Shown one piece after another: positions 60,078 to 63,968 of a stretch of DNA of 64,000 nucleotides (position 1 is its first letter; the number at the start of each line of letters is the position of its first letter). Both the position numbers and the translations under genes were made by a program. The notes beneath the pieces are model-generated. The model ran no database searches, had not been told where the DNA came from, and worked only from the letters and a program-made list of their open reading frames with translations. The stretch comes from Pseudomonadota bacterium (GTDB lineage Bacteria; Pseudomonadota; Gammaproteobacteria; Steroidobacterales; Woeseiaceae). The stretch lies in assembly GCA_027621915.1 (NCBI GenBank), contig JAQCAD010000007.1, positions 1-64,000 on the forward strand, written 5' to 3'.

Positions 60078-61172
60078 TCAGGTATCCTCAACAACAATCC
60101 TGGGGAATCGCGCGCTGTAGTCCCGGCCCTGCATCGCGAGCCGTGCAGCAAGACGCTGAGCCGTCCTGCGGTACGCCTGTGCCGGGCCTTCGTTCGGCTC
60201 CGCTATTACGCTGGGTAGCCCACCATCAGTCTGCTGACGAATCCTTAGATCGAGCGGAATCTGGCCAAGCAAGTCGACATCATAGTCCAATGCCATCTGC
60301 GCCCCGCCACCACTGCCGAACAGGTGTTCTTCATGGCCGCAATTGGTGCAAATATGAGTGCTCATGTTTTCAATAATGCCAAGCACGGGCACATTCACCT
60401 TGCGAAACATCTGCAAACCTTTCCGGGCATCGAGCAATGCAATGTCCTGCGGAGTGGTTACGATGACCGCGCCGCTTACCGGGACCTGCTGTGAGAGCGT
60501 CAGCTGAATATCGCCGGTCCCTGGCGGCATATCGACAATGAGATAATCGAGTTCTGACCAACGTGTCTGCTGCAACATTTGATTCAGCGCCTGCGTCACC
60601 ATTGGGCCGCGCCAGACCATCGGCTGATCCGGGTCAATGAGAAATCCGATAGACATGACCTGCATTCCATGAGCAACCGGGGGCGTCATCGACTGCCCGT
60701 CAGCGCTGGTCGGTTTTTCACCAGATACGCCCAGCATTAGCGGAATGCTCGGTCCGTAAATGTCGGCATCCAGTACGCCGACTTTGGCCCCTTCACCGGA
60801 AAGGGCCAGCGCCAGGTTGACGGCGGTTGTCGATTTTCCAACGCCCCCCTTGCCTGATGCGATCGCAACAATGTTGCTCACATTGGGCAAAGGCTTCAGA
60901 TTTCGCTGGACACCGTGGGCGGTTACTTTCGTCACAATCCTGACCTCAATTTTCCGTGGACCATATTCATCCAGGATTGCGGCACGAATCCGGGCTTCAA
61001 GCTCTGCGAACAGCCCGGCAGCAGGGAAGCCAAGTAGAATATCAACCTGCGCGCGTTCGCCGTCGATCGAGGCCACGGACACTCGCCCGACGTCGGCCAG
61101 CGGTCGATCGACGCCGGGTACGACAATCTCGCTTAAGGATTTCGATAGGGTGTTTTCTGCAGACACTGTCAC
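60078..61172 (-). CDS. apbC: Fe-S cluster carrier ATPase ApbC/Mrp
   Basis: A 364-residue P-loop ATPase. An N-terminal DUF59/MIP18-like domain (about 1-95, containing VDILLGFPAAG) precedes the deviant Walker A in ASGKGGVGKSTTAVNLA, switch I VLDADIYGPSIPLMLG, switch II DMPPGTGDIQLTLSQ and the CxxC metal-binding pair in STHICTNCGHEEHLF. It binds and delivers 4Fe-4S clusters. In many Gammaproteobacteria it is beside metG or dcd, the latter being the case here. Confidence 0.96.
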   Translation of the reverse strand: MTVSAENTLSKSLSEIVVPGVDRPLADVGRVSVASIDGERAQVDILLGFPAAGLFAELEARIRAAILDEYGPRKIEVRIVTKVTAHGVQRNLKPLPNVSNIVAIASGKGGVGKSTTAVNLALALSGEGAKVGVLDADIYGPSIPLMLGVSGEKPTSADGQSMTPPVAHGMQVMSIGFLIDPDQPMVWRGPMVTQALNQMLQQTRWSELDYLIVDMPPGTGDIQLTLSQQVPVSGAVIVTTPQDIALLDARKGLQMFRKVNVPVLGIIENMSTHICTNCGHEEHLFGSGGGAQMALDYDVDLLGQIPLDLRIRQQTDGGLPSVIAEPNEGPAQAYRRTAQRLAARLAMQGRDYSARFPRIVVEDT

Positions 61173-61553
61173 AATTCACGACTCGGTATTAGGTTAAATT
61201 GCTGGGCATGTCGCCCGAATCTGCGACCGCGGGCGGTATTGTAACCACAGATGATCCCAATGATTGCAAGGGATTGCGGAAATATCGGAGATGCAGATAA
61301 TCAGCAGTTCACATTTTGGGCGCGAGGCGATGTGGCATAATGCCGGATCGGGTACGTACGGATGCGATTATTGGTTTGCCATAAGCTGGCAGATCCGGCA
61401 AATCGCCTGGGCAAGAGCGATATCGGTATTGATGGCGTTTGATATCAAGGATCAAATTTCACGACAAGCAGGCGAGGCACTGGCCTGCACAGGATTCGTA
61501 CATCTGCCACTTCCGTCCGTCCCGCAGTCGACGCCCGTGACAGGCGTTTCCTG
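61173..61553. other. 381 bp region upstream of the HEAT-repeat kinase gene
   Basis: No convincing gene. One frame is open on the plus strand (61264-61554, 96 codons), with its TGA overlapping the following ATG by one base, but its composition is unlike a real protein. A candidate extended -10 (TGG then CATAAT, 61333-61341) could promote the kinase gene, leaving a leader of about 200 bases. Confidence 0.4.
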
Positions 61554-62456
61554 ATGGCAATTCTCGGCGGATTCAGGGCCGATCAGTTGATCGGCCAGTT
61601 GACCAACGAAGCGGATACCAATTCGCGATCGGCGCAAAAAACCATCGAGCGCCTCAAGAACATCGGGCCAAAGGTGATTCCCCGGGTCATAGACGCACTG
61701 GCCATGAGCGACAAAAGCCATACGATGGTATTTGTCGATATCCTCGCAAGTTACGTCAGCGACAAGACGCTGAAATTTTACAAGGAAGGCCTTGCTGATG
61801 GCGGCGAACGGGTCGTGGCCGGAACGGCATGGGCACTTTCCAGCAGCAATAATTTCAATGCCAATAACCTCCTCGAATTCTTTGACGACAAAGAGGTTTC
61901 CAAACCGGCTCTGGTTGAGGTCCTGAAAGTACACAAGAAAGACCTGAGTGTGCACGAACTATTGCGGCGCGCGTACGAACTGGAACCGAAGGAGAAGGCC
62001 GCCCTGTTCGCGATCATCGAAGAAACGCTCTCGATCGAAATGGTTCCTGATCTGATCAATCGCATGGGCGGAAAGGATCCTGCCGTAAAGATACATTTGA
62101 TGCAATTGCTGACCAAGTTCCAGCGAGACGACATCAATCGAGCGTTCGAAATGCAGCTCGGTGATACGAACAAGATGGTTCGAAGTGCAGCACTGAGTGC
62201 ACTGGCAGGCCGCAAGGGTCCGGTGAATATCGAGAAGATTACCAAGCTGTTGCTGGATCCCGATCTTGAGGTACAGGGAAAAGCAGTGGACGTGATCGTT
62301 AAAATGAACCATCCGGATACGATCAAATACCTGGTTCCTGCGTTGAAGGACGAATCCGAATATACGCGACGCTCAGCCGTTGAAGTGCTGAACGAGATAT
62401 GTAATCCGGAATCTGTCAAAGACCTGTTAGCCGCCATTAAGGATGATGACTGGTGA
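61554..62456 (+). CDS. HEAT-repeat protein: N-terminal part of an interrupted HEAT-repeat kinase
   Basis: A 300-residue run of HEAT-like helical pairs without signal peptide or membrane helix; examples are KVIPRVIDALAMSDKS, MVRSAALSALAGRKGPVNIEK and YLVPALKDESEYTRRSAVEVLNEICNPESV (in parts). It ends at a TGA after KDDDW, whereas the same repeat one unit later reads DDVDWWVRERAVDALAHIG. The frame then continues as VRARAGDALAEIGG into the kinase part below, so the stop cuts a single gene. As found, this piece alone would be a HEAT-only protein. Start ATG 61554 has only a weak ribosome-binding site. Confidence 0.75.
   Translation: MAILGGFRADQLIGQLTNEADTNSRSAQKTIERLKNIGPKVIPRVIDALAMSDKSHTMVFVDILASYVSDKTLKFYKEGLADGGERVVAGTAWALSSSNNFNANNLLEFFDDKEVSKPALVEVLKVHKKDLSVHELLRRAYELEPKEKAALFAIIEETLSIEMVPDLINRMGGKDPAVKIHLMQLLTKFQRDDINRAFEMQLGDTNKMVRSAALSALAGRKGPVNIEKITKLLLDPDLEVQGKAVDVIVKMNHPDTIKYLVPALKDESEYTRRSAVEVLNEICNPESVKDLLAAIKDDDW
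62454..62456 (+). other. In-frame TGA inside the HEAT-repeat kinase gene
   Basis: The codon lies where the neighbouring repeat has TGG (Trp), so one base change would restore the frame. TGA is used as an ordinary stop by many genes here, so the code is standard. A 6 bp GC stem (62463-62468 with 62476-62481, loop of seven) begins six bases after the TGA. Confidence 0.85.
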
Positions 62457-62711
62457 GTCCGCGCGCGTGCCGGTGACGCGCTCGCCGAAATTGGCGGCCC
62501 GAAAGTTGTCAATTCGGTACTCGAGCTGATCAAGGACAAAGACGAAGACATTCGTCGGACAGCAATTGAAATTCTCAATGCCACCAAGGATGAAAACGCA
62601 GTTGACACACTGATAAAGGCCACCGATGACGTAGATTGGTGGGTACGTGAAAGAGCTGTTGACGCACTGGCGCACATAGGCAGCAAAAAGGCACTGCCAA
62701 AACTCATCGAG

Positions 62712-63968
62712 ATGCTTGGCAAAAATTCGAAGTCCGACACAATCATCGTTCGTGCCATCGGCAAGCTGGGTGATGCCGACGTTATTTCCAAACTGTTGCC
62801 GATGCTGAATCGGCCGGAACGTGAAATTCAGGTCGAAGCAATCAAAGCGATCGCGCATCTCGCCGATCAGAGCCATGCCAATTCGATTCGCGGCGTCCTT
62901 CAGAAAATCAAGCAGTCGGATGACAAGACGATCATTAACAGTGCGGACAAGGCATTGAAGGAACTTGATGCCAGGTTCTCCGAAAGCGTAATCCTGGAAA
63001 ACATCCGCGCCGAAAAGATGTCAGAGCACACTAAAACGTTGCTCCTTGATAATGAAGAACTCAAAAAACTTATCGCGACTCAAAAGCCGACCGAGCAGGC
63101 CGTCGCTGCTGCGGAGGCGCCGCGAATTCTGGACATCGCGAAACTCGAGCCCGGCGACGTTATCGACGGACGCTACAAATATATTGAGAAGATAGGCAAA
63201 GGTGCATTCGGCACCGTGCTCCTGATGCAGGACCAGGTTGTAGACGAACGACTCATATTGAAGTTCCTCAATCCGAATGTTTCATCTGACGAGGAAATGA
63301 TGAAACGATTTGTTCACGAATTACGTTACTCGCGCATGATCACGCATAAGAATGTCATACGTATTTACGATTTCCTGTACCTGCAGGGTGCGTACGCGAT
63401 ATCTATGGAGTATTTCCCGTCGCACACGCTTAGCGGAGAAATTCCGGACAGCAAACCAATGCCCTTTCGCAGAGCACTGCAGTTTTCGATGGACATGGCG
63501 ACTGGAATGGCGGTTGCGCATCAGGCAGGAGTCATTCACCGCGATCTCAAGCCGGCCAATATCCTTGTAAACAGCGATGGGTTGCTGAAAATCGTGGACT
63601 TTGGTGTGGCCGCGGCTGCCAGCAGTGGCGACACTCAGCTGACCAAGACCGGCTACGTCATCGGGTCGCCGAAGTACATGGCGCCCGAGCAAATTCTTGG
63701 CAAAAAAGTGGATGAAGCAGCAGATATCTACAGCATCGGCGTGATCATGTACGAAATGGTTACAGGTATTCCGCCCTACAGCCGTGGCGATCACATGTCC
63801 GTCATGTATCAACACGTGCAGGGTCAAGCCAAGTTGTGTCAGGACGTCAATCCGAATGTTCCGGACGACTACGCGGCGTTGATTGCCAAAGCAATGTCCG
63901 TCGACAAGTCGAAGCGTTACCAGACGATGGATGAGTTAATCGACGCTCTTAGCGCAATCCAGGTATAA
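62712..63968 (+). CDS. Serine/threonine protein kinase, C-terminal part of the interrupted HEAT-repeat kinase
   Basis: The same frame downstream of the TGA; its true coding sense begins at 62457, but the first ATG in frame is at 62712, inside a HEAT repeat and without a ribosome-binding site. After the last repeats (to about residue 95) and a coiled linker, an intact Hanks-type kinase occupies about residues 153-418: Gly loop GKGAFGTV, the Lys in LILKFL, HRDLKPANIL with catalytic Asp, DFGVA, APEQ and a C-lobe with VMYEMVTGIPPYSRGD (VIMYEMVTG). So the kinase domain would be active if made. No transmembrane helix or PASTA domain. Target unknown. Confidence 0.8.
   Translation: MLGKNSKSDTIIVRAIGKLGDADVISKLLPMLNRPEREIQVEAIKAIAHLADQSHANSIRGVLQKIKQSDDKTIINSADKALKELDARFSESVILENIRAEKMSEHTKTLLLDNEELKKLIATQKPTEQAVAAAEAPRILDIAKLEPGDVIDGRYKYIEKIGKGAFGTVLLMQDQVVDERLILKFLNPNVSSDEEMMKRFVHELRYSRMITHKNVIRIYDFLYLQGAYAISMEYFPSHTLSGEIPDSKPMPFRRALQFSMDMATGMAVAHQAGVIHRDLKPANILVNSDGLLKIVDFGVAAAASSGDTQLTKTGYVIGSPKYMAPEQILGKKVDEAADIYSIGVIMYEMVTGIPPYSRGDHMSVMYQHVQGQAKLCQDVNPNVPDDYAALIAKAMSVDKSKRYQTMDELIDALSAIQV

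Follow-up and report, generated by a model that had tools for sequence, protein, structure and literature searches.

Does the single in-frame TGA at 62454-62456 divide a locus of two genes, mark a codon that is decoded in an unusual way, or represent an isolated lesion in one conserved gene? The window (the whole stretch of DNA analysed, 64,000 nucleotides) belongs to a draft genome, referred to below as G000, of 3.56 Mb in 101 contigs, with 95% completeness; its relatives are marine gammaproteobacteria of the Woeseia type. The locus comprises the following features:

60078-61172 (-): ApbC/Mrp iron-sulfur carrier gene, the divergent upstream neighbour
61554-63968 (+): gene of a predicted HEAT-repeat Hanks-type Ser/Thr kinase, interrupted; 805 codons counting the TGA, full-length in relatives
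61554-62456 (+): product if UGA terminates, a 300-residue HEAT fragment with no kinase domain
62454-62456 (+): in-frame TGA, codon 301
62463-62481 (+): possible hairpin with a 6-bp GC-rich stem (62463-62468 pairing with 62476-62481) and a 7-base loop, starting six bases after the TGA
62712-63968 (+): longest ATG-started open frame 3' of the TGA, 418 aa, with a HEAT remnant and an intact kinase domain

Translation of the window agrees with the sequence-only reading, which had taken 61554-63968 for one protein of about 805 codons bar one TGA: codon 301 is the sole internal stop of the frame (...AIKDDDW*VRARAGDAL...). Pfam places HEAT repeats both 5' and 3' of it and an intact protein kinase domain at residues 541-792 (175.6 bits); the protein exceeds the cut-offs of PF00069 (Pkinase) and PF13646 (HEAT_2, 224.9 bits). 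Judged from its sequence, the gene encodes a Hanks-type Ser/Thr kinase with HEAT repeats. The catalytic motifs HRDLKPANI, DFG and APE are undamaged and there is no further stop or frameshift in the gene, so the earlier description of a reading frame with intact downstream motifs and no other damage holds. The observation is more than a chance one: in a 0.97-Mb scan of the genome, the coding signal was strong both 5' and 3' of this TGA, and its start-free stretch, 86 codons, was longer than that of every other candidate.

Scanning genome contigs, we recovered 80 homologues of the kinase at 56-90% identity. Aligning them, as the sequence-only reading had proposed, gives a consistent picture: codon 301 is TGG in all 80 (and at all 19 nearest genome loci), and 79 of the 80 have a single open frame, of about 805 codons. 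Trp300, Trp301 and the Trp pair of a second DWW (362-363) are invariant in the alignment. In the window this second DWW occupies codons 361-363, its tryptophans written TGG TGG; the proposal that the stop arose by a G-to-A change from TGG at a Trp position of the repeat is thereby borne out.

The gene is nearly universal in the family. Of 45 good-quality family genomes, 44 have a match. Most of these matches are full-length or stop short just where a contig ends, and in a few small genomes the match is confined to the kinase domain. The order-level sample contains the full-length gene in about a dozen further families, at identities as low as 45%. Its surroundings are equally constant: mrp/apbC lies divergently upstream in 76 of 76 loci reaching that far, and on the other side pilT is the immediate downstream neighbour in 71 of 71, with pilU and metG after it. 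The order mrp/apbC - kinase - pilT-pilU-metG (60078-63968 in the window; L127:4085-8391) is kept in Woeseiaceae and in more distant gammaproteobacteria, at every locus examined. Such constant linkage to pilT-pilU suggests that the kinase may regulate type IV pilus retraction. Our literature searches returned no description of this HEAT-repeat kinase or of its link with pilT-pilU.

Three further kinase genes deserve mention. A homologue in another draft genome (L023:3001-5445) carries an isolated TAG at codon 114 (...FFDEA*VSKP...), differing from the window stop in both site and residue. In the order sample, the kinase at G149:C120:63006-65340 gives two neighbouring, out-of-phase matches in place of one, apparently through a single frameshift. 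A kinase of the window genome (G000:C16), flagged as containing one TAG, was set aside: the TAG is the end of its own 400-aa frame.

How old can the interruption be? Against the nearest relative, synonymous sites of the window kinase are saturated (pS about 0.77), with dN of 0.05. Among 78 near-full-length sequences, the alignment has 190 columns invariant in all, and at these the window kinase shows no private change; the median homologue likewise shows none at otherwise invariant columns. By our arithmetic, unconstrained drift should produce about 190 x 2.3 x t private changes, so that zero hits correspond to t below about 0.007 substitutions per site. Because none of the 190 columns has changed, the stop is very recent or not real. 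The same zero, together with the lack of any other stop or frameshift, speaks against a decayed pseudogene.

We then surveyed 1.77 Mb of the genome, 50% of G000 sampled by stretches, for comparable lesions. Single-codon coding statistics proved too weak for listing interrupted genes; a hexamer model and family searches did better. Isolated in-frame stops, of mixed kinds, interrupt at least five other genes, one in each. One of them, L156:17990-19213 (on G000:C29), emerged when G000 was compared with 0.23 Mb of its nearest relative: this Woeseia-conserved gene, whose product has no Pfam or NCBIfam match, has a TGA at codon 60 (L156:18167) where TGG stands in all 11 genus relatives covering the site. 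The hexamer scan gave the other four:

L229:16856: TGA in an aminopeptidase P N-domain, at a Val/Arg column in relatives
L180:3286: TAG in an S46 peptidase, at a Glu/Asp column in relatives
L134:17219: TAG in a DUF418 protein, at a Lys in relatives
L170:3027: TAA in a fimbrial usher

Each of these scattered stops is the only lesion seen in the portion of the gene read. About 200 G000 genes aligned to E. coli proteins, with 986 Trp codons, contain no genuine in-frame stop. In our judgement every starred stop in that comparison lies in a shadow frame, antisense to a ribosomal-protein, tuf, rpl or similar gene, since the query frames run antisense to annotated genes; these stops were discarded. 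The alignments to E. coli proteins showed no frameshift; a single doubtful one came up against G028.

Six stops in about 531,000 codons (1.77 Mb of G000) amount to at least 1.1e-5 per codon; among the approximately 87 kinase copies of the family two are stopped, which gives 2.9e-5. Assuming that 3.4% of random substitutions yield stops, these figures imply 1.1e-4 (G000) and 2.8e-4 (family kinase copies) wrong or young bases per site. In our judgement, values of 1e-4 to 3e-4 are unremarkable and plausible for a draft consensus.

Against this background, the reading that we favour, with a probability of roughly 92%, is that the kinase TGA is an isolated TGG-to-TGA nonsense substitution in an otherwise intact, conserved single gene, with no role in decoding. 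The lesion is unique to the window genome at this site, and similar ones are scattered there in unrelated genes. Two observations count against it. TGG-to-TGA changes make up two of the six isolated stops, which is slightly more Trp than expected, though not significant (P of 0.09 if every change is equally likely, 0.35 if transitions are favoured). In addition, about 200 genes that also occur in E. coli were free of in-frame stops, an outcome that would fit real mutations screened by selection no less than it fits chance.

That the downstream part is translated separately from an internal start is very improbable. The 418-aa frame from ATG 62712 does hold an intact kinase domain, but this ATG, the earliest in-frame ATG, GTG or TTG, comes exactly 255 bases after the TGA and within a HEAT repeat. 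No plausibly spaced ribosome-binding site precedes it, the sole purine-rich stretch, ATCGAG, abutting the ATG itself, and no homologue starts at the equivalent position. In relatives of 45-91% identity the gene is single and uninterrupted; constant neighbours and a full-length gene across family and order therefore rule out two ancestral genes. The sequence-only reading had doubted two independent genes on the same start-site grounds, and both the doubt and its grounds stand. It had also drawn attention to the GC-rich hairpin after the TGA, and here only the possibility of pairing survives: its folding energy is unexceptional against shuffled sequence (z of -0.96 and +1.19), and the hairpin does not form in the nearest relative, whose fold is different. 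This hairpin is the one feature that would invite selenocysteine insertion at the UGA, the least credible of the readings considered. SelA is absent from the 95% complete genome; tRNA-Sec has no hit above cut-off, and the hits below it coincide with ordinary tRNA genes; relatives carry Trp at the site, not Cys.

Partial or complete reassignment of UGA to Trp across G000 gains some interest from the TGA of L156:17990-19213 at a column where all 11 relatives covering the site have Trp, and we weighed it genome-wide for that reason. It was dropped on the mixed kinds of stop and on the E. coli comparison, in whose 986 Trp codons no genuine in-frame TGA occurs. TGA is moreover the commonest stop of the genome, ending 171 of 354 long frames, RF2 is present, and no tRNA with a UCA anticodon was found among the tRNAs read; we regard reassignment as scarcely tenable. 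G24A is the classical tRNA-Trp change linked with UGA decoding. A four-pair anticodon stem of tRNA-Trp(CCA) has also been tied to it (PMC13092985). The one tRNA-Trp found in the window genome has anticodon CCA and, from its sequence, a C11:G24 pair and a five-pair anticodon stem, so neither applies. The same tRNA bears on programmed or tolerated readthrough, in which tRNA-Trp(CCA) would read UGA often enough to make full-length kinase and the stop would merely lower its level. Trp is the residue inserted by near-cognate UGA readthrough in enteric bacteria, and in-frame stops whose surroundings are under purifying selection are reportedly common among prokaryotes (PMC7918605); the kinase flanks, too, are without decay. 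However, the TGA is conserved in no relative, the hairpin is neither significant nor shared with the nearest one, the tRNA lacks the four-pair stem, and the other isolated stops of G000 include TAG, TAA and non-Trp sites. We thus consider readthrough unlikely. A version in which the ordinary tRNA-Trp reads UGA as Trp often enough to adjust how much of this type IV pilus-linked kinase is made, with L156:17990-19213 as a second site, seems similarly doubtful. Of the causes named by the sequence-only reading, a recent change and a sequence error remain the leading options, and programmed readthrough finds no support, given the hairpin, the absence of recoding machinery, the ordinary tRNA-Trp and the mixed stops.

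The isolated nonsense substitution can itself be understood in two ways. If the base is truly chromosomal, UGA would terminate translation, leaving the HEAT fragment without a kinase, and the locus would be a young null allele. Otherwise, one base of the draft consensus would be wrong. We slightly favour error (about 55%, against about 45% for a young null allele), because the gene is near-universal without any trace of relaxation and because unrelated kinds of stop are scattered in the same assembly. In the case of an error, the annotation is missing a core conserved kinase and has two spurious fragments in its place, and similar faults can be expected in other parts of the draft, as the further isolated stops indicate. 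A real young null allele would amount to a naturally occurring knock-out of this kinase, otherwise near-universal in the family and always found beside pilT-pilU. Neither outcome alters the view of the genetic code.

Three known systems invite comparison. With Hanks-type Ser/Thr kinases bearing N-terminal HEAT/PBS-lyase repeats, the window kinase shares its Pkinase and HEAT_2 matches and its motifs; in contrast to them, it reaches no NCBIfam kinase equivalog cut-off and is constantly linked to pilT-pilU. Systems that reassign UGA to Trp through tRNA-Trp(UCA) or a four-pair-stem tRNA-Trp(CCA) (PMC13092985) resemble the locus in that its TGA sits at a Trp codon, but differ from it in other respects: here TGA is still the stop used most often, the genome has RF2, the tRNA-Trp stem has five pairs and no UCA tRNA was found. 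Finally, isolated in-frame stops in prokaryotic genes have been ascribed to artefacts, sequencing errors, pseudogenes or readthrough (PMC7918605). The window gene is like those cases in having one stop, flanks under purifying selection and a short life, as judged from its non-conservation in relatives; unlike them, it belongs to a single draft genome in which all three kinds of stop occur in unrelated genes, which argues for errors or young alleles over selected readthrough.
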